64,000 nt of DNA from Sinonovacula constricta (taxonomy: Eukaryota; Mollusca; Bivalvia; Cardiida; Solecurtidae): positions 27,485,478-27,549,477 of the forward strand of contig CM017558.1 of assembly GCA_007844125.1 (NCBI GenBank). Reading direction: 5' to 3'. The position numbers and the translations under genes are program-made. Of the stretch, positions 1,796-52,403 are shown piece after piece (the first letter of the stretch is position 1; each line of letters opens with the position of its first letter). The notes beneath the pieces are model-generated. The model had not been told where the DNA came from and searched no databases. It saw only the letters and a list, made by a program, of their open reading frames with translations.

Positions 1796-1803
1796 TTGCA
1801 TCC
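1796..1803. repeat. Target site duplication, left copy (TTGCATCC)
   Basis: The eight bases immediately outside the left terminal inverted repeat are identical to the eight bases outside the right one at 10723-10730. An 8-bp duplication is expected for P and hAT superfamily elements; the transposase motifs point to P. Confidence 0.93.
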
Positions 1804-2498
1804 CACAGGCTACCGGCGTGTGTCCAAGACCCCCCCCCCCCCCCCTGGACCCACTCTACTACCCAGACCCACCCCCTTACCCACTCTACAACCCTCACAT
1901 ATTTCAACCTAAATCATATCTAAAAGTCATTTTCTAACAAAATACCATGTTTCTAAAAAAAAAAAGAAATTGATATAATAAAACATGAAAAGGTATATAA
2001 CTAGGAGGTCCAAATCTAACGGAAAACTGACATGGCCCTACTCGAAGCTTCACTGTCAACACATTTCCCGGTCGATTTTTGGAAAACAATGCTTAAACAA
2101 AGCGGAATAAATAGGCCATCATGTCGCCGTACCGATTTCGTACCTAACATGAACTACAAAAAGTCAGCGAGTCACCAAACTGCTTGGAAACCTGTCTAGG
2201 ACACGATGTGACCGAAGCCTTGAGTTTTACGTTCAATTGCACAAGTCACACTCCTTCCTTATTTGAGGCAAATATCGATGCCCGTCAATAAATAATATGT
2301 TTATTTAATACTCACGGGTAACGATTTTCTGCAAAAGTGGCTACTTGCAATGCATTCCCTCAACATCCGAACGCTGTGTTGTTCTCTTTCAGACAGTTTC
2401 CATCTTGAATTGCTGACCCGGAAGCAGTTCTCATAATAATAGCTTTCTCATTGGTCTGTTTTGCGGAGGTGTGTCACCGCAATCGCTGGTTCCCAACG
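1804..2498 (+). repeat. Left terminal inverted repeat (~695 bp)
   Basis: It matches the reverse complement of 10018-10722 almost base for base. Differences seen are the homopolymer near the tip (C16 at 1830-1845 against G12 on the right) and a 12-base insertion present only in the right copy. It ends 73 bp before the helicase start codon, so the helicase promoter probably lies inside it. Confidence 0.95.
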
Positions 2499-2571
2499 TT
2501 TTTTCTATATCTTATATGTAAGTAGGAAACCAATTTCCCGTATTCTCGCAGCTTCAAAACGCAATTTAGAC

Positions 2572-5500
2572 ATGTCGCTGAACGAAAAACAGAATCTGGC
2601 TCTGAAATTTGTAGCCGATGGACATAATTTGGTGTTACTCGGCTCAGCGGGCACTGGTAAAACATTTACAGTAAGTAAAATCGTTGAAATGTGCCAACAA
2701 CATGGAAAGAAGTGGGCAGTAACAGCAACCACTGGCATCGCTTGCAGCCTGTATTCTGGTGCTCTGAATCCCATGACCATTCATCGTTGGTGTGGCATCG
2801 GCGATGGACGCTACGGGCCCGCTGAAATCAAACGTATTGTTTTGAACAATGTTAAGTACAAAGACGTTCTGGATAGAGTGACAAACACTGATGTACTTAT
2901 AATTGATGAGTGCTCAATGATGAGCAAGAAGATCATTGAATCTGTAAATGAGGTTTGTTCCATTAAAAATCAGACACTATATTTTGGTGGAATACAGGTT
3001 ATTTTAGTTGGTGACTTTTTACAGTTGCCCCCTGTACCGTGTGCAAGATACAATGAAGATGGAGCATATTGTTTTGAAAGCAAACTTTATGATGAAGCTT
3101 TTCCTCATGTTATACATCTTACTGAGATTGTGCGACAGAATAACAAGGACATGATAAAAGCAATAAGAGAGATTTCTATAGGTGATGTTTCAGATGGAAC
3201 TATTGAAATGATGAAAGAACTGTCAAGACCAATAAATAAAAACAGCATGAAACTTTTTTCGACAAATGATTTAGTAGATGACTTTAATCGTGATATGATA
3301 CTTAATCATCCTGGACCACTACATGAATACATTTCTTCAGACAATGGTGAGAAAAAACACTTGAAAGAACTTCTTGCTTGCCGAAATCTTTGGCTTAAAA
3401 TTGGAATACCTGTAATACTTATAAAAAATTTGTCTGACCAGTTGGTGAATGGGCTTAGAGGAACAGTATATGACATATATGAAGATGGAAGAATACTGGT
3501 AGAATTTCCAAATATGAAAGAGACAACATATATTGATAAAGTTAGATTTGAAGGTAAATATTTACTTTGCTCCACATTACTTGATTATTAAAAGATGTAC
3601 AGTTACCACAGCATAAGTGCTAATCTCAGTTTAAAGAAAGTGATGATTTTCCACAAAACCTTACTCATTCTTAATATAATAATAATACTAATATTGTTAT
3701 CTTTTTCACATGGAGTAATTGTAATGTCCCCCTCACCCCCGAAAAAAAGGAGAAAATTTTGCTGAAACATGCATGTGGTTTAAATTGTGTATTGATTGCA
3801 TGCAATATTACATGTTATTCAGTATATATTTTTAGAACTACAATTAAATAAACTGTATTTCTGTACATAATCTATGCTCATTAACATGCATAGAGTTCAT
3901 ATACAGTACTTGATTTCTTGCTGTAAGAAGAATTGACATAAATATGTCATCTTTTCTTTTACAGTATTTGATCCTAGGAAAAATGCTGTGGTTGCATTGA
4001 GAGAACAATATCCACTGAAACCAGCATATGCTCTTGCTCTTACAATTCATAAAAGCCAAGGGATGACACTGGAAAGGTTAGTAATTTTTTTTCTTTATCC
4101 AGATATAAACAAGAATAAAAATATCAATAATTTCAAACCAGGAAATGTAATCAGCATATGTCAAATTATCCAATGAAGAGACTTGCTGTTTTCATCATAA
4201 AGAAAACGTGGCTAATGATTTCATTTATATAAAAAGACACAGCATATTAATTATGGTCATTTAGGGAAATGCAGGACAATAAATGCACGGCTGATACGAC
4301 ACTACTGAAAGTCTGTTTCTTGGCAAACTTGCAGGAAATGAAAAAAATCACCTATTTAATAAACTATGTATATGTTTTATGTAAAAAAAAAGGAAAAGAG
4401 GGTGGATAAGGTGGGGTAGATGATTATTTCCCTGTTTGAAAAATCATACAGTCATGGAATTAAATAATTTTATAAATATATTAATGAATGCTTAATGAAC
4501 TGGCAGTTACAGATAGATCCATAAACTTTAAATTATATCCTTTCATATTTTGGGGAAACGATCATACTATTGACAAATATTTGTTGCTTTCAGTGTGGAA
4601 GTTGACTGCCAGGATATATTTAAACCTGGGCAACTTGGTGTGGCCATTGGACGGGCAAGTACATTAAATGGCTTGAGAGTAGTGAACTTCACTACTAAAG
4701 CATGTATCAGACAGCCAGAAAAAATATTGAGGATAGTGAATTCAGAGGATATGTTAAATACAAAAGATGATAGAAGCTGTTGTAATTCTCATGTCAGGTA
4801 AGATTGTATAGTCACAAACATATTTATGTTTACATTTTAGCCTATGGAGCAACTGTCATACAACAGTTTAGGTCAATACAAACTTTGGGAATATAATTTT
4901 ACCTGATAACTTTTGCCTTTTAGAAGGATAATTCTTAATCGAGAAGTCAAAAGGCATTGCCGCATCTCTTCCTTTCCCAGCATTGGCTTTTCTAGATACA
5001 ATGTTCTGCCCTAGGATTACACTGTTAAGGGTACGCTTGTACTGCAAGGCATTGGGATTTGAATTAGCTCCATTATATGTAGATCGCTGTTGGTTGAAAA
5101 TATTTTCAACGACGTCGGAATTAATTAATGCAGGTGTAACATATATCTCTTTACATGTCTTTATCACCATTCTGCATAGCCCAATGAATCCAAAAATGCA
5201 TGATAGAATATCGTCATAGCACTGATATGATAGAAATTGGTGTTGTTTTTCTTTAGAAGACATTTTGCTTGTTTCAATAAATATTTTCCATGTCTGGAAC
5301 CATGAGCTTATTTCAAGCAGTTCGGTGATCCGTGGGTCCTCCATGTGGGTAATAGGTCTCATATCCCTGAAAATGTCTATTAGTTTGGAAGTTTGTTTTA
5401 GAATTTCTATTGTACCATTAAGAATGTCACCTTTGGGTCCAAGTGAACTGTATCATTGTGTTAAACATTTCTGAATTTAAAACATCTTCAGCCAGATGGT

Positions 5501-8500
5501 TTCTCATTTTTGATTGTGTTGTTAAATGTATATGTTCATTGGTTAGCTTTCTGTGTAGTTGTAGACAGTTTTGTTTGTCCCAGTTGAAACAGTCACAGAA
5601 CATTTTCCATTGAACAGTGTATGATGATGGTAATGTCAGAAGTCTAGTATATTTAACACTGTTTCCTTCTATGCCACTTGATAAAATGTTATTTCTTATT
5701 TTTTTAATGACATGAGATATGTCCATAATGAAAACTAAATCACTGAAGTTACAAGGGATTGATGTTTGAAATGTTGTATTATTGTTACCTAAGTTGTATT
5801 TCATGAAGTTTCTGTTGCTCTGTGCACCATCTAAACTAGTGTAAAGAACATTGAAACCATACATTTGTAGTTTATCAACGGCTTCCCAGAAAAGACTATA
5901 CAGTTCTGTGCCTTGTATGCCATTGGTGATAAAGTGGGCAAAGGGAAACCTAATCCTGTAATACCCCAAAAAACAAATTGTAAAACATGTGTTCCAATAC
6001 TTTTTTTCATTTTTACCAGTACGAAGCACAGTAGATGCATTTCCCTCCTCTCCCACATCAGAAAGTCCACATAATTCAACTACATCTCCATTTTTAGATA
6101 ACTGCAGGTCTGATTGTATTGACATTTCATCAATGACTATTCCACCAATCCAACCATCATGGTGAATTTCTTTTCTAACAGCCTCACAATGCATCCACTT
6201 CAAAACATTGTCATCAAAACCTACTTCATGCTTTATTTTATTTTTATAAAGAACTAAGGTAGATGGACATGGTAGAACTAACATTTTGGTTGCACGAAAT
6301 GCTTCATAAGACTGTGGACTTCTGCAGTACCACTGTAAACACACTGAAATCATTTTCTGGGTCCATCGTCTTCCTCTAGGGTCTCTATTTACATTTTCTG
6401 CCTGACTGAGAAATAGCTCTGCCATATCATCAGGTATGTCGGGAATCAGTTTTTTAAGGTCTTCCATCAAAATTTTTTATTGGTCTTGATTTCTTGTGGT
6501 TTATTACTGACTTCAGTGTTTTCTGGTCCAGGGCTATTATTTTCCTTATTTGAGTCTATTTCTTGTAAAGTCATTTTTTGACACTTTCTGCATACTTGAT
6601 TAACAGTGTTCATGTTAACAAGTCTGTCACAAAGGATGGACCTTACAATCCTCTGCTGTGACCTACTGTCATCTGTAACACGCTCAACAGAATGAAATCT
6701 TGTGATAATGGCCTTTCTAGCCTTAACACCCACACACAGTTTCAATTTTGAGGTAATTTCACAAACCAGTTCAATGCTTTCCTTGGTATACAGAAATTTA
6801 TTGGACACATAAAGACTATTAAGGTCAATGACCTTTCCACTCACACTCAGCACCCAAGTTCCATCTTGTAGGAACTGTACAGTTTTACACACTGGTGTAT
6901 CATTTACTGTTGTTCCAGTAAGGGTTTTACATGTTACTGAGTGATTTTTTTCTTCAATTACTATGAATTCTTTATATAAATACTGCTTCAGCTCAGAAAG
7001 TTCAGAAAATTTTGTATGCTGATCTATGTGGGGTAGCCTAATTCTGATACCTCTGTAAAATGTCTTTGTCTCATGGGCTGTTTTTCTTCTTTCCTTAATC
7101 ACATTAGGATAAACCTTCGGTATATGCTCATAAAACAATCGTTTCTGATTATTGAGAGATAAGCCTGCTTCTTTTGTCTCAAATTCAAATATCTCTAAGA
7201 GTTTTTTAATTTCAATTTCAGAACTGCTCTCTTCTTCTACTCGCATAATTAGCCTGAAATAGTAATTATTTGGGATAACATTTTCTTTATCAGAAGTGAC
7301 ACATACTCATACAGTCAAACTTGTGCTAACAACCACCTGTTATTAACTAGATGATGCTTTTGTTAAACAAGAGGGCCATTGGCCCTAAGGCGCTCACCTG
7401 AGGCAGAAACTGTTATGACCCCGGGGCAATTTAACCTATTTCAAAGACTACTTTTTGGTTAACCATAGGGTGGTCTTTCTACACATGTTTGACTGTATTT
7501 TTATTGATCAAAACCAGAAGCTGTTGTTTTTTTTCATTACCGTATTCTTTCAAAGATATGCCGCACTGATGTATAAACCGCACCCCTAAAATCAGACCCA
7601 AAATGGTAGAAAAATGCTTAATACCATGCATTAGCCACAGACATTTACCCTAATCGTCTGCCATTTTGCTTGTGTAAAGTTTACATACTATGTATAAGGA
7701 ACAAACTTTGTTTGATTGTGGGGTGCGGCTTATACACCCGTGCGGCTTATATTCGAAGGAATACGGTAATTTTAAAAAAAGCTTCTGGTTTTGATCAATT
7801 AAAAACTTTAAAATCTTAAGAAAATTTACTGGACAGACTTGTAATTGTACTTTAATTTTGTTTCAGGAACCTGCCAAGTATACAAGGCATTTTTACTACA
7901 GATGAAGTGACCGAAATAGACAGTCTGCTGAATGTCGATGAGGATATCGAACCAGATATGGAAGATCTTGATGATGATTTCAATGAAGTAATAGCTAATT
8001 TAGACATTGGTGAGTGTGAAGAAATTAAACTACCTGATGATATTGATCTAAGTATCATTATTGACAAAATAAGAGCTGAATCAGTTGTGACCCCAATGCA
8101 GCTTGAAAATAATGAGATTTTGTCAAGAATGAATTTTTCAAAGCTGGAGCAATTTGCAAAATGTGAATACAGGAAGCTTTTGTCTCTAATTGAAGAATGC
8201 CCCTGTTCAACAACAGGACAAATAAGCTCCAAAGATCTTGGTGACTTCTACACAAAGGTGCATCAGCATGCAAACAGTTTAGAGTTTAAAATGAATTGTA
8301 TGAAATTGTTTGAAAATGAAACCCATTATGGTGTTATTCACCAACGAATTTGTTTCAATATTTCTATGGCACTTAGGAAGTATATTGTTTCTGAAAAATC
8401 CAGAAAGGTAGAAACTACCAGTCGGCAAATTTCCAAACGGACAGTAACACATGCGTCTAGAGCTAGAATACGGTATGTTGGAGGTTATTGCATAGCCAAA

Positions 8501-9517
8501 GTCAGGCACAAATATGTAACTAAAAAGGCTTCTCATAGGTACTCAAATAAGACAAGTGATAAAGAATTATATGAAGAGGCCAAGTGTGCCTTAAAAATTC
8601 TTAACAATCTTACAGAAGAAGAACAAAATATTTTAGCATGTACAGAGGAATCGGATTCTCTTTTGGATATTTCAAGAAGGCAAAATATGAACAGAGGGCT
8701 TACAAATATTCCTGATAGCTTATTTCATTTCTTCATTAAGTTAACAGACAAATGTTTAAACATGCTGACAGATATAAACTTGAATAAAATGGGAAGTGAG
8801 CTGTTCACAGTGTGCCAAAATGAAATACTATCATGCACTCCACTGTATGAAGAATTTGTCAAAATTCGTTTTAAAGAGAAAGACAGTTATGAACAGTTCA
8901 TTGGATCTGAGGGATATATTGATGAGCTTCTTCAGTATATGACTTTGCAAATTGTTCAGATTGAAAAGATCTACAGGCATATCATAAAATATCACTTAAT
9001 TGTAATGCTGAATCAATTTAGGCAGGATATTTTAGACAGTTTCCAAATAGAGAAAAAAATGGCTCACCGGAAACAGGTTAGGGTTGCATCAACTGGTAAA
9101 AAAGATATTGCAGCAAAAGCAGTTAAACAAGTGGCTTCTACTAGTACAAGAAAAGGAAAATCCAAGAAGTGTGCACAAAAAAAACCTGAAGAACATTTTA
9201 CCCCTACTGTAGTAAACCCCTACTTGCCTCCTGAACCTGTTCAGTCTAATTTAAATCAATCAGGATTCGTGCTAGAACCTGGGCCATCAGTATCCACAGC
9301 AGATGCTGATCCATCAATGATATGTGAACAGCAATCAGAAAGTGAATCAGATGTTAAATGCAAGGTTTGTGATACAATTGATAAGGGAACAGAGTGGATA
9401 CAATGTGACAGTTGTGATAGCTGGTTGCATAGAAATTGTGCAGGACTTAAACACCACTTGAAGTGGAAAAATTATCAGAAAATAGGCTCAAAATTTCTGT
9501 GTAAAGACTGTGAATGA
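2572..9517 (+). CDS. PIF1-type helicase fused to a PHD finger, transposon-borne
   Basis: Four exons with GT-AG junctions: 2572-3553, 3965-4076, 4594-4797 and 7867-9517. Phases match at every junction and give 982 residues. Residues 24-31 are the P-loop GSAGTGKT, 112-117 are DECSMM (Walker B), and 147-155 are VGDFLQLPP. Exon 2 gives LTIHKSQGMTLE and exon 3 gives VAIGRAS, the late PIF1 motifs. Exon 4 begins with a long acidic stretch, then RYVGGYCIAKV near 635-647, a basic linker near 840-870, and a Cys4-His-Cys3 PHD finger at about 932-982. PIF1 enzymes unwind DNA 5' to 3'; PHD fingers commonly read histone H3 tails. The function of the 450-930 region is unknown to me. The open frame reaches upstream to 2461, but the first ATG is at 2572. 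Intron 3 (4798-7866) contains the antisense transposase gene. A role in transposition or gap repair is inferred. Confidence 0.9.
4868..7253 (-). CDS. P-element/THAP9-type transposase
   Basis: The coding segments read leftwards. An acceptor at 7254-7256 opens an exon whose first ATG is at 7246; this 259-codon frame ends at 6467. A second frame (ATG at 6467) runs to 5431. A 64-bp GT-AG intron (5430-5367), phase-matched, joins it to the last exon at 5366-4868. In the second segment a typical HTH region (WTQK...CRSPQSYEAFR) precedes IDEMSI (first Asp), YTSLDGAQSN (second Asp) and MDISHVIKKIRN, which matches the P-family GTP-binding insertion. The last exon has VENIF...NSNPNALQYK, the expected late Glu region. 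The family excises and inserts DNA with 8-bp duplications. The step between the first two segments is unresolved: a phase-matched 47-bp GT-AG intron (about 6514-6468), a one-base indel in an A6T4 run, or a stop-restart (TGATG) would each serve. No THAP zinc finger was found at the N-terminus. Confidence 0.85.
7372..7386. repeat. AGGGCCA-T-TGGCCCT palindrome of an interspersed repeat
   Basis: A near-perfect 15-base palindrome followed by AAGGCGCTCACCTGAGG. This resembles the head of a common bivalve interspersed repeat, as far as I recall. Its edges are not defined here; the related sequence may extend to about 7500. It lies in intron 3 of the helicase gene, upstream of the transposase. Confidence 0.4.
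7503..7801. repeat. Inverted repeat split by a small inserted element
   Basis: TTGATCAAAACCAGAAGC at about 7505-7522 is matched by its reverse complement GCTTCTGGTTTTGATCAA at about 7781-7799. Between the arms lies a separate element with its own inverted ends (7540-7766), giving nested palindromes. Confidence 0.75.
7540..7766. mobile_element. 227-bp MITE-like element with CCGTATTC ends
   Basis: It begins CCGTATTC and ends GAATACGG, is flanked by TA on both sides, and has further inverted similarity inside (TATAAACCGCACCCC against GGGGTGCGGCTTATA). It has no coding capacity. It sits in the intron between helicase exons 3 and 4. Confidence 0.75.
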
Positions 9518-9591
9518 CACCAGAATTTTGCTCATATATGTCCAAATAGGTTCATGCACAAATGCTTCAGTTGTAAAATCTTTAAAAAAAA

Positions 9592-9597
9592 AATAAA
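9592..9597 (+). terminator. AATAAA polyadenylation signal of the helicase gene
   Basis: The first canonical AATAAA lies 75 bases after the stop codon of the helicase-PHD gene, within an A-rich stretch. Confidence 0.6.
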
Positions 9598-9614
9598 ATA
9601 AATGTGAAGTAATA

Positions 9615-9750
9615 AGGGATTGATGTTTGAAGTGTTGTATTATTGTTACCTAAGTTGCATTTCATGAAGTTTCTGTTGCTCTGTGCACCATCTAAACTAG
9701 TGTAAAGAACTTTAAAACCATACATTTGGAGTTTATCAATGACTTCCCAT
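9615..9750 (-). pseudogene. Second copy of the transposase second-Asp segment
   Basis: This stretch matches 5755-5890 in the same orientation, with about seven substitutions over ~135 bases. Read on the minus strand it stays open and keeps LYTSLDGAQSNRNF, so it includes the second catalytic Asp region. Most differences change the amino acid. It lies between the helicase 3' end and the right terminal repeat, is far too short to be a functional transposase, and has no obvious splice sites. Confidence 0.85.
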
Positions 9751-9866
9751 CATAAGGATTTTTTAATGGTCAGAATGATGCAAAAAGTTCATAGGATTAA
9801 TCAAAATAGCTTGTCATGTGCATTTTGTTCAATGACAGTGGCAAAAAACGTGAGGAATATAATTAC

Positions 9867-9883
9867 CATGATAAAATGGACAT
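9867..9883 (-). other. Candidate first coding exon of the transposase
   Basis: On the minus strand ATGTCCATTTTATCATG is followed by GTAATT, a plausible donor. Joined to the acceptor at 7254-7256 it keeps the transposase frame open. This would place the transposase promoter in the right terminal repeat and make a ~2.6-kb intron containing helicase exon 4. The evidence is only a short ATG, a weak donor and matching phase. Confidence 0.2.
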
Positions 9884-10017
9884 TTTCACGACTTAACTTC
9901 AGTCAGAGTTTGTAAAAACTCAAAGCATCGCACAAAAATCTTTTTATTTTTGTAAAAGTGCGCCAATGTTTACTGTACAATACTGTGTACCGGTTTTATT
10001 TCGTGCACCAAAGCGAG

Positions 10018-10722
10018 CGTTGGGAACCAGCGATTGCGGTGACACACCTCCGCAAAACAGACCAATGAGAAAGCTATTATTATGAGAACTGCTTCCGGGT
10101 CAGCAATTCAAGATGGAAACTGTCTGAAAGAGAACAACACAGCGTTCGGATGTTGAGGGAATGCATTGCAAGTAGCCACTTTTGCAGAAAATCGTTACCC
10201 GTGAGTATTAAATAAACATATTATTTATTGACGGGCATCGATATTTGCCTCAAATAAGGAAGGGGTGTGACTTGTGCAATTGTATCGTCCATTGAACGTA
10301 AAACTCAAGGCTTCGGTCACATCGTGTCCTAGACAGGTTTCCAAGCAGTTTGGTGACTCGCTGACTTTTTGTAGTTCATGTTAGGTACGAAATCGGTACG
10401 GCGACATGATGGCCTATTTATTCCGCTTTGTTTAAGCATTGTTTTCCAAAAATCGACCGGGAAATGTGTTGACAGTGAAGCTTCGAGTAGGGCCATGTCA
10501 GTTTTCCGTTAGATTTGGACCTCCTAGTTATATACCTTTTCATGTTTTATTATATCAATTTCTTTTTTTTTTTAGAAACATGGTATTTTGTTAGAAAATG
10601 ACTTTTAGATATGATTTAGGTTGAAATATGTGAGGGTTGTAGAGTGGGTAAGGGGGTGGGTCTGGGTAGTAGAGTGGGTCCAGGGGGGGGGGGGTGTCTT
10701 GGACACACGCCGGTAGCCTGTG
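10018..10722 (-). repeat. Right terminal inverted repeat (~705 bp)
   Basis: Reverse complement of 1804-2498. It is about ten bases longer, mainly because of a 12-base insertion near 10281-10292 (TATCGTCCATTG) that partly repeats its neighbours, offset by a shorter homopolymer at the tip. Confidence 0.95.
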
Positions 10723-10730
10723 TTGCATCC
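10723..10730. repeat. Target site duplication, right copy (TTGCATCC)
   Basis: Identical to 1796-1803. Removing the element and one copy predicts an empty site reading CTTTTATTGCATCCTATACT. Confidence 0.93.
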
Positions 10731-47400: not shown

Positions 47401-48778
47401 TGTAAGAGTGTGTCAATATTCCTGTCTAAAGCGCATGCTCTTTGTGAAGCCTTCGATGTCTGACATCCGGGATCTTTCTGGTTAAATTAGTTGTGGTGCA
47501 AGGGATTAAATGGGAGAACCACACAGTTAAACCCCTGAACGAATCACAATTGAGGCAGTTTCTCATTTGTATTTTATGTTTAACAATGCATTTTCTTGTC
47601 TTCTTCTATGTATGTTATATGCGTTTAAGTTACTAGTTTGCTCGTTTGTAATACTACGCAGATATCTCCCTCGACTCGTCTGCTAATTAATGCCTGATAA
47701 CTCTCCAGATTTTGCCCACAGCGATGCCGAATGTATTTCAACAGTGAATCATGTCCCCGACCCCAGATGTACCCCACCCCAACACCTGCCATTATAAAAG
47801 TGCCTACTCAACATTTGTGACAACAAATATATCCCTGCTGTATTAACGATTCATAGAAATGTAGCAGGAAACCAGTAAGCGACAGAAACAGCGTACATCT
47901 TACACGTAGCTCCGTATTCTATATTATTTCAAGATATCATTCAACTACCCTGTCGAATAATTCGAGCATAACATTACAGTATGGCGGGATTACGAAAACA
48001 GTTTGTCCAATACTTTGTGACGTTTAATATAATCCTGTTATTCACTTTCGTTATATGTTTGTATATAACATTTTGTGTTTTGTGTAGCCACAAAGTACTG
48101 ATATATCTTCGAATATGAAGGCGCCGATTCGTTTCCATATAAATATAGGGAACTGTTCTATCAATGAGGATATCATGGATTTAATAATACAATTACATGT
48201 ACATTGCTGTTGAAACATCAATACGGTGGTGGGGGGGGGGGTCGTTATTGCTAATTTTTGTTTAAAAGTCTTCGTGACTGCCTGACCTGGTGTCAGGATA
48301 ATATGACTGGGTGTGTTATCATGCCAAGTGCTAATGGCATGTTCTACTCTGTGAAGACAGCACTTTTCCTGCTTCAAGTAGACACAGACTCCAAATAATA
48401 TTGTTGAACCCATGAAACGATTGCTAATATTCACTTTTAATCGAGACACAGCACAAGCTGTTTATATGTAGGCACATTGTATTACGTGATCTGAAGTTAT
48501 TATAATTAGTCCCATCCTGGAGAGCGGTGCCAGTTGTGAATGCATTTCTATGAGGACGACAGTGAAGCAGGCGATAAAAGAAAGCAGCCGCTGTTCTGTG
48601 AGACCCCTTTTCTTAAAATAAATCTAGAAATTTTTTCGTCTCTTGCTCTACATACGCTCGGTCATTTGGGAGAGGTTCGTTGACGACATAAACCATTCTT
48701 TGAATATATCTTAAATTATAACGATTGTGGTAAAACAATGACCGCGATATCGAAGATGTCTGAGATATATAATAGAAC

Positions 48779-48779
<1 letters not shown>
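44403..48779. other. Long spacer without supported genes
   Basis: No coding exon with convincing splice signals was found. The longest open frames (46723-47025 plus, 48051-48449 minus) resemble no family I know and look like chance. Confidence 0.5.
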
Positions 48780-48839
<60 letters not shown>

Positions 48840-48865
48840 CAACAACAACAACAATAATAATAATA

Positions 48866-48930
<65 letters not shown>
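48780..48930. repeat. Palindromic AAT/ATT microsatellite
   Basis: About 50 bases of AAT, then AAC, then AAT units, switching at about 48868 to ATT units for about 60 bases. The two halves are reverse complements, so the tract can fold into one long hairpin. Confidence 0.93.
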
Positions 48931-51438
48931 GTTAACAAATGTCAGATGACAGAAATACACAGTCAACGTTGAGCAAGAATTTAACGATATCATAAAACAC
49001 CCCTCTAAATTTTTGCACACAAAAAACCAGTAGGAAATATCCGCAGCAATTGAAATAATACATAATAATGGCATAATAAAGCATAGAACATACCTGAATA
49101 TAGTTCAATATATATCCAAAATTATAGGAATAATGATCGTGCTAATCTGCTACGTTCGCCAATCTGCAAAGTACCCGTGCTGTGACGTTGTGCACGTAAA
49201 AGTTTAAGTTGTTAGTTATTTCCCTTTAGTAGTTTAAAACCTACGGTGTTGTATTCGTTAAATAATGTCAAAATTACAAGCAAACAATAAATTTAATGCG
49301 AATAAAGGTACCCTACGACCAATTATACTTTGTTCTAGAAGTATCACCATGGGGATAGAAACGACGCTTGTTCGGATGTTTGTTTAAGTATCTTCACTTT
49401 GCATGAAGTGCATATACTGAATTATAGACGCATCCATGCACTTCTTAATTAACTGTAATAACGCTGATACAGAAGTTTTGTTAAAGCTTATAAGCATGTT
49501 TGTTGAAATCTTTGCAACATGTCATTATCAATAGGATGTGTCAAAAATATTAAAAAGATTGAAAAAATTCATCTATATTTGATGATGATTATGATGATGA
49601 TGATGATGATGATGATGATTGTACAAAATCCTTTTTCTCTCTAACTCTCTCACTACATGTTTTTGTATTTTGTACTTGGATTCGACAAAATTCAAGCATA
49701 CTCTAATACAGTGATTAACAAACATTTTATCATGGTGGAGCGCCCATAACGCAGAGTCGCCGATTTGTAACTCCTCTGACTGCTTAGCCTCCCACCGCGT
49801 AGATTCGAGTCCCGTTCGGGCCGAATGACTTAATATGGAAAGGTTATCCATCTGACCTGCGTTCCATCGGCGGTCTTTCTCCACCAGAACAGCTGGAAGT
49901 CGCTATAATGATCATAACTGGTCCCTGCTTTGTATCTCAAAAAATCAAAAACAATACAAAACATTTTATTATGCATCTGATTAGACAAATGTGACGAAAA
50001 TGTTACTTTTAACTTACAAACTTTTTTTATAACTTACTGTCTTCATATCGATAAGGATCTTGACCTTTATGCTCCGCAATATCCTTCAACTAAGTGATGT
50101 CACGACAGTTTGACTACTTAGACAACTTATCTTCTAAACATATATTTTTATTTTTAAATTGGGGCTCGAGCCTTTTTCCGATTCTTTCAATCTGTCAGCG
50201 GCAGCTGGCGTGCTTAGTCTACTTGTTGTGCCAGGTTTCATGACCGACAAGACTCGGCTAAATCAACAAATGAAATGTTGATTATCAAGATCAAGGTTCA
50301 AATACTTTACAAAAAAATAATTAACTGCATTCTTATAAAAGCTAAATACTGTATATTTAAGAGTTGAGACAAGAATACACCCCAATTCATCACTTCTTTT
50401 TTTTTTGAAATTGTTAATCAACTACTTCAAGTGAGAAACTATTAGGGCAAATGACAGCTTGTGATTAGAAGAAAAAAATAAGACCTGGAAACCTTTCAAG
50501 AGTCAAACATTGCAGCAACTACAATTGTACATAAAAAAGTACAATATACCCCTGAATCAGAATAAACCATCAACACCCCATCCCCATTTTTATTCATGTT
50601 TCTTTTTTTCAATCTCTCTCTCCACCCCACCCCCACCCGCCTCGTCTTCCCTCCACCAACAACACCATTAATTTTCCCTGACTTAAGATTTTATTGATTT
50701 GTTTACTTTAAAGCATACTCTCATATAATAAGCACAGAAACATGCTCATACAATTAGAACAAAACAATACTCTTATGTTTTTATAAAAAAAATATTATGC
50801 GTAACACACCTAAAAACAGATAATATATATATTTGCTGTATATTGTATTTAGTTATACAAAATAATTTTCTACCTTTTGTAGATTACATTTGTATGTACT
50901 TTATTTGAAAGGAAGAAATAAAAAATAAAATTTTAAAAAAGATCAATGTTCCTTTGCGCCTTCACTGTCGGCCATCGATATTAAACTTCCTAGAAACTAA
51001 CCTTCTAATGTTGATTCTACTTAGACCAGGATAAATGCTTATTAAAGCCTAAAAAGTTAACAATGTTTATATAAATTCTAAAAACAATGATTTCTTTAAC
51101 TAATTTTAACTAGATTGTGTTTGTATTGAACATTATGGTTAATGTAGCATATGTGTAGTTCATGTGAATAATTCAGTGTGTTTTATATGTTTGGTTAGTT
51201 TATATTCACTTGCTGTTTTTTGTTATTGTATTTTGAATGTCTACTCCGCTCTAAACTAGGAAATAAGTGTTTGTATGTTTGTTTCCAATTAAAATACGTT
51301 GATGCAGATGGAAACTGCAACACTTAAGACTAATGAAACACACACTAGATGTCATTCCTTATAAGGGACTGACCCAGTTTTAATAGAAGTGCTTACACGC
51401 ATTTAATAAATAATGCTAGTGTTAAGCTTTGCAAAAAT

Positions 51439-51440
<2 letters not shown>
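48931..51440. other. Spacer with one SINE and one GAT microsatellite
   Basis: No gene supported. Contains a GAT run at 49583-49620 and the family D SINE at 49735-49905. Confidence 0.5.
49735..49905 (+). repeat. Dispersed SINE family D, copy 3
   Basis: Plus-oriented copy beginning GGTGGAGCGCCCATAACGC, with box B GATTCGAGTCCCGTTCGG, then the family body ending TCCACCAGAACAGCTGG. Confidence 0.75.
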
Positions 51441-51853
<413 letters not shown>

Positions 51854-52403
51854 AATGGATTTGCATTTTATTTTAAAGGCCCTGATCCCAAATTGGTTAA
51901 TACATGTATACCAAAGAAACCATTACTGTTTGTGTAAGGCTCAGTTAAACTATGCTTTATACTCATTCAAACTTCCTTAACTTGGTCTTTGCGTAGTTTC
52001 GTATCTTTTTTCCATGACGCAGTTACTGCGTTAGCACCAACTATGGCCGAGGTTTTCCGAAAATGTCAAGTAATACAAACAATAGTTATGAAAGGCAGAG
52101 TTATATCATCTGTCGAATTTGTCGGCTGGTTAAAAATGTGTCTCGTATATTTTAGGCACCTAGTTCGAACCACTTATGCTGCCTTTTTTTCCTTTCTGAA
52201 GATTTTAACCAAAATTCATTTTATGAAAAAAGAGCTCATCTTTTTATATAATTTTGGGATTTTTAAACCTGGCAGCAAACTGCCATTACCTTTGATAATA
52301 AATTACCCACTCATCTTATTCTATGAAAATAACTAATATTTTATGCAGCCTTGCTATACGTTGGGATCACTCTTTCCGTCTATACCTTGATGGTGATTCA
52401 CCT

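Follow-up and report, generated by a model that had tools for sequence, protein, structure and literature searches.

We report that the window, by which we mean the whole 64,000-nucleotide stretch of Sinonovacula constricta DNA analysed here, contains a transposon of the P superfamily in which a gene for a PIF1 helicase ending in a PHD finger lies within the same inverted ends as the transposase gene, a structural description that we regard as practically certain. The element, at positions 1804-10722, is a single bounded unit of 8,919 bp in a 1.22-Gb assembly. The initial annotation had proposed a distinct P lineage with a PIF1 gene inside its ends, and this is borne out by four near-complete copies and by diverged elements carrying both genes. 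It had correctly placed both genes inside the ends; the nested order of the genes, the PHD finger and the helicase gene's large C-terminal region had escaped it, and these can be read from the following features (positions are those of the window; the basis of each is given in brackets):

1796..1803, no strand: left 8-bp target duplication, TTGCATCC (flank comparison)
1804..2498, + strand: left terminal inverted repeat, starting CACAGG (repeat search of the window)
1830..1882, - strand: two G-quadruplex-like motifs of the left end (motif scan)
2572..3553, + strand: helicase gene, predicted exon 1, first part of the PIF1 motor (domain and splice-border reading)
3965..4076, + strand: helicase gene, predicted exon 2 (GT-AG borders)
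4594..4797, + strand: helicase gene, predicted exon 3, last PIF1 motifs (splice borders, motif alignment)
4798..7866, + strand: helicase gene, predicted intron 3, holding the transposase gene (splice-border reading)
4868..7246, - strand: P-type transposase gene, intronless, frame-shifted in the window copy (ORFs, Pfam, copy comparison)
7867..9517, + strand: helicase gene, predicted exon 4, with conserved region, PHD finger and stop (splice borders, alignment)
9359..9511, + strand: PHD finger (PF00628, E 1.6e-6; PDB matches)
9605..9749, no strand: 145-nt repeat of the transposase-gene segment 5744-5888, 94% alike (repeat search)
10018..10722, - strand: right terminal inverted repeat (repeat search of the window)
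10646..10694, + strand: two G-quadruplex-like motifs of the right end (motif scan)
10723..10730, no strand: right 8-bp target duplication, TTGCATCC (flank comparison)

The inverted arms of about 695 bp consist of pieces of 404 nt (100%), 265 nt (100%) and 40 nt (98%), and the same 8-bp sequence stands on both sides of them, which upholds the complete ends and the duplication first described for this element. The terminal 27-mer is present at 17 places in the 1.22-Gb genome, exactly so at all 17, and the reversed control at none. Ends were inspected at 12 loci, namely the window and 11 others: 8-bp duplications flank all seven insertions with both ends recognised, and the seven sequences all differ, with one end recognised at C3, C7, C12 and C17 and neither at C6. 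The search of the host genome for further copies with both genes, which had been suggested from the outset, did find them. The four near-complete copies measure 8,919 (C4, the window), 8,837 (C5), 8,677 (C8) and 8,957 bp (C2), are 99.1-99.4% alike in pairwise comparison and each hold all coding parts; the C3 copy is partial, the C15 copy of 2.2 kb has lost most of its inside, and further copies are mostly ends only. Two short copies, C1:24658318-24658637 (L017, 320 bp) and C2:31138973-31139582 (L014, 610 bp), are nearly ends alone with perfect 8-bp duplications; such end-only copies are non-autonomous and were moved in trans. Both genes are whole in none of the four near-complete copies: the C5 transposase is a single ORF of 795 residues from the first Met, and in the C5 helicase a deletion of 10 bp and a stop interrupt the frame; the transposase is broken in the window, C8 and C2 copies, with the helicase open in the window copy and indels also within the helicase exons of C8 and C2. 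The window element is best explained as a P-superfamily cut-and-paste transposon that has few copies and was active recently. Elsewhere in the window, ORFs longer than 150 aa at 48613-49074 and 51393-51980 are simple repeats (poly-Ile; RE/SL runs) and are unlikely to be genes.

The transposase gene lies antisense within predicted intron 3 of the helicase gene. The domain TNP-like_RNaseH_N (PF21787) is matched in a window piece (E 3.4e-12) and in all 18 relatives, and the only PDB match (E<=1) of the relatives' profile is the Drosophila P transposase 6p5a, at E 3.2e-6 for the whole, with no single stretch significant alone. A D, D, E set is conserved in 18 of 18 relatives, and we take these to be the catalytic residues; the first D and the last E fall in stretches aligned to 6p5a, and the second D does not. 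The GTP-binding insertion domain PF21788 is matched in seven of the 18 relatives and has no match in the window pieces. Of the P/THAP9-type transposase described earlier, the P assignment therefore stands, but the THAP domain, which is the usual N-terminal domain of P transposases and which we do not hold to be defining, was found neither in the 18 relatives nor in the three window pieces that were scanned. An intron at 5430-5367 was considered and rejected: the C5 ORF spans this segment and relatives keep matching residues, and for these reasons the gene is read as intronless and the window copy as frame-shifted. The query of the transposase protein searches excluded the 5430-5367 residues and the N-terminal third, and identities and coverages are relative to that query. 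Two P-type relatives, P0086 and P0095, carry a precomputed label for an RFX DNA-binding domain (PF02257).

The helicase gene has four predicted exons with GT-AG borders and an open frame of 982 residues, and its predicted product, laid out as PIF1 motor, conserved region and terminal PHD finger, aligns collinearly with predicted proteins, among them P0007 (Mizuhopecten) and P0009 (Saccostrea). The ORF that had been taken for a separate PIF1 gene is indeed PIF1 (PF05970, E 7.1e-27, with the 2B domain PF21530 also matched), but it amounts to the first of the four predicted exons. Among 41 aligned relatives, a PIF1 match is found in 32 and a PHD finger in 33. The SF1 motifs of the motor are kept, for example the motif I lysine in 26/26 and the motif II glutamate in 31/31 readable rows. 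For the region between motor and PHD finger, the Pfam copy used gave nothing significant; a newer precomputed label, PF27108, is attached to some relatives of the protein, and the C-terminal region does not resemble the transposase profile. Among named proteins, the nearest relatives of the window's two genes are from bivalves. The 145-nt repeat behind the helicase gene is found in other window-family copies too, and transcripts of this gene that run through it would be antisense to the transposase mRNA, because the two genes run on opposite strands.

PIF1-like helicases are a mark of Helitrons, and the helicase region could on that ground be taken for a Helitron nested in a P element. However, its best PDB chain is a PIF1 (E 3.3e-50), with Helraiser much weaker (6.5e-15), and two helicase-gene pieces gave no Pfam match to an HUH Rep domain (in exon 4 all seven matches were covered, in exon 1 the best 25 of 35). 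In a tree of 53 chosen helicase rows, a clade of 32 rows at 100/99 unites 27 database proteins, of which the named ones are bivalve, with the window and four further loci of the host; a hemichordate protein joins it at 91/69 only, and the one host Helitron helicase included falls far outside it, on a very long branch that leaves its exact place unsure. The transposase gene, moreover, sits within the helicase gene, and the pairing recurs inside several different end pairs. The separate clade, the interleaved genes and the recurrence in different ends lead us to reject a nested Helitron, the alternative against which the initial annotation had cautioned, as having a very faint chance of being correct.

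The pairing of the two genes recurs across the host genome. Searches with a transposase relative (P0012), a C-terminal relative (P0001) and the window's helicase domain gave at least 64, 49 and 71 matches, respectively, and the counts derived from them are lower bounds. Matches were clustered at 15 kb and paired within 12 kb; all 64 transposase and all 49 C-terminal matches entered this step, and the helicase set comprised 60 of 71 (the other 11 fall in window-family loci, except for one in the listed cluster C3:48.147M). This resulted in 25 transposase, 28 C-terminal and 43 helicase clusters. Within 12 kb of the transposase clusters the C-terminal part is found at 18, the helicase at 15, both at 14 and neither at six; one of the 18 C-terminal pairings, C15:24.37M, matches through the 145-bp repeat only. 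Without the five window-family clusters, the corresponding figures are 13/20 for the C-terminal part, 11/20 for the helicase and 10/20 for both. In favour of two unrelated elements side by side, by chance or through one nested insertion, each gene also occurs alone at some places; but random placing would yield 0.016 pairs with the C-terminal part, against the 18 of 25 seen, and 0.025 with the helicase, and the transposase and the C-terminal part lie on opposite strands in 18 of 18 pairings. Given this pairing count and strand regularity we reject chance neighbours, to which we accord next to no credence. Of the 14 places with both, 10 (6/10 outside the window family) have the window's order, with the transposase flanked by the motor on one side and the C-terminal part on the other. 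At C1:8.48M and C15:14.16M it follows the complete helicase gene and the two genes converge, and at C7:46.98M and C9:24.77M the parts are rearranged. At C7:46989190-46990007 and C9:24770420-24771221 a match to the helicase N-terminus (1-118 and 3-118, respectively) abuts a match to the transposase C-terminus on the same strand; this junction, present twice, may stem from a derivative that was rearranged or fused and then spread.

Each part also occurs on its own. Ten of the 28 C-terminal clusters have no transposase near, eight of these ten having no helicase either, and 28 of the 43 helicase clusters have no matching transposase near. Low identity marks some lone helicase clusters as Helitrons or other PIF1-like genes, but those at C4:50.08M and C4:51.39M match at 44-45%. 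The PF21787 domain was met with neither helicase nor C-terminal part near at nine of the 20 places checked (of 22 matches), which therefore belong to other host P families without a helicase. At two of the nine, C12:8.50M and C3:59.48M, a THAP match lies 2-3 kb away, as judged by eye, and in the 15 helicase-bearing clusters no THAP match was found among the 150 matches listed of 777 candidates. Viral and genome contig collections searched with the transposase and C-terminal alignments gave no relatives; the genomic evidence in animals comes from this one host genome, with other species represented by proteins.

Several old families of the host pair an intronless P-type transposase with a PIF1-region-PHD gene, and their readable ends are CACAGG with 8-bp duplications. 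Inverted ends were sought in ten diverged regions (in C3:26.6M in part) and duplications in six. The elements at C10:20812941-20826220 (13,280 bp) and C1:8482562-8490547 (7,986 bp) each have CACAGG ends, an 8/8 duplication and all parts inside, and that at C17:6923059-6933285 (10,227 bp) has a duplication matching at 7/8. The element at C17:37628014-37634458 has CACAGGTG ends and a duplication of about 6/8 by eye, with the automatic matches falling inside a repeat, and its motor part was not found; C17:15.27M and C15:14.16M have inner repeats only, and the remaining four regions no clear ends. In a transposase tree of 34 rows, host and database rows are mixed and the two gene orders fall in different parts, which places the origin of the families before that of the copies in this host. 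Distances between transposases agree with those between helicases over 13 loci (r 0.77, p 0.0002), several of which are of one family; with one locus per family the correlation over nine is weak (r 0.43, p 0.03), and two of these nine are database protein pairs that are putatively linked, P0003/P0020 (6,360 bp) and P0004/P0050 (1,746,463 bp), whose agreeing record sizes suggest that each pair shares one contig. The simplest reading of these comparisons would be that a P lineage gained PIF1 long ago and kept it, with one old gain and joint descent; repeated swaps would be a less simple account.

From the domain of the transposase, the acidic residues conserved in it and the duplications of 8 bp, we propose that this enzyme would cut and insert as P transposase does. 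P excision leaves a gap that is filled by copying from the sister or homologue. PIF1 helicases unwind G-rich structures and drive DNA synthesis during repair. An element with a PIF1 of its own would favour restoration of the donor. The helicase-PHD protein may act in repair of the excision gap, a role that we consider quite possible, if short of an even chance. It would do so after excision, tethered to chromatin by its PHD finger, driving repair synthesis across the gap from the sister or homologue and through the long inverted ends; this would restore the donor copy and raise the copy number. The explanation as a whole, structure and repair role together, we hold to be somewhat better than an even proposition. 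A fuller version is decidedly more tentative: it envisages an old P lineage with its own repair machine of PIF1, new domain and PHD finger, gained once before the families split, which would rebuild the donor site and make cut-and-paste a form of net copying, with the transposase nested antisense in an intron. Four of the window's six G-quadruplex motifs lie inside the element's ends, and such motifs are present in two and absent in three of five bounded families (outer 300 bp scanned). The inverted arms are no more alike within one copy than between copies, and thus hold no trace of the proposed repair.

The PDB matches of the PHD finger include the fingers of DIDO1, PYGO1, KDM5B and MLL, which we take to be histone H3K4 methyl readers, and P elements prefer promoters and replication origins. 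Both observations would fit a helicase-PHD protein acting at insertion, in target choice, strand opening or chromatin access, with the PHD finger reading a histone mark of open chromatin; we find this unlikely, and the nine duplications read have, by eye, no common sequence. Slightly more doubtful still is the view of the helicase gene as a passenger that was picked up early and has travelled with the element since, or that serves some host-like or anti-silencing function having nothing to do with transposition. Some short copies that lack both genes have moved, and the helicase is therefore dispensable in cis; the C17:37.63M element is without the motor part; and among the four recent copies a crude count over the whole helicase gives 27 replacement and 7 silent substitutions (ratio 1.00), that is, no constraint. 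However, unconstrained young copies are also expected from decay after insertion, and in the same count the transposase core, which the frameshifts affect, reaches 2.64 (21 replacement, 2 silent), with 0.79 for the transposase N-terminal part (6 and 2) and 0.55, again crudely counted, for the helicase motor (8 and 4); the pattern is as for copies decaying after insertion. Against a passenger, too, families only about 30-45% alike retain the motor motifs and the PHD ligands, and the gene pairing recurs over diverged families. Constraint shows only between families, in the motifs.

P elements are textbook cut-and-paste transposons whose gain in copy number is attributed to host repair, and a P lineage retaining a PIF1 helicase gene makes the copy-gain step testable inside the element. 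Its transposase core is related to the Drosophila P transposase, as are those of the P element, 1360 and Galileo. The P element transposase carries a THAP domain, Helitrons have neither inverted ends nor a target duplication, and the Kolobok duplication is TTAA. Like a Helitron, the element described here has a PIF1-like helicase within a mobile unit; unlike one, it has inverted ends, 8-bp duplications, a DDE transposase and a helicase of another clade (one host Helitron tested). According to PMC4168063 and PMC2775673, Galileo is a P relative with long inverted ends; the former gives ends of 757-765 bp in a near-complete D. willistoni copy, duplications of 7-8 bp for Galileo and the P superfamily, and a THAP domain in the Galileo transposase. 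The present lineage differs from Galileo and P in that THAP was not found and a second, PIF1-PHD gene is present. Helicases are already known in other DNA-transposon superfamilies: AcademH is a DDE-type DNA transposon encoding a helicase (PMC10045372), and among Kolobok DNA transposons there are lineages that carry an accessory helicase or nuclease. In KolobokH this is a RecQ helicase, which in one rhodophyte family is on the complementary strand (PMC9587614). Both belong to superfamilies other than P; KolobokH has RecQ rather than PIF1, and AcademH has duplications of 9-10 bp, and Academ generally 9-10 or 3-4 bp, according to PMC10045372, against 8 bp here. Neither the Academ nor the Kolobok type of duplication was seen, the 8-bp duplications being of varied sequence. 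In the literature searched, no paper could be recognised as describing a P element with a helicase gene; most subscription papers and Repbase lie outside its scope, and earlier cataloguing is possible.

Bivalve proteins named PIF1 or uncharacterised (from Mytilus, Mercenaria, Pinctada, Pecten, Saccostrea and others) have the PIF1 motor and often the same C-terminal region and PHD finger, but they are annotated as gene products with no mention of transposons, and are known here from proteins alone. The P lineage described here suggests that many predicted bivalve genes of these names may be transposon genes and not host gene expansions. Among the transposase relatives (P0010, P0012), one from JGI shares 91% identity with the transposase query from the window, and two are listed as belonging to a Sedimenticola MAG; the JGI and Sedimenticola matches are probably animal DNA in symbiont or gill samples.
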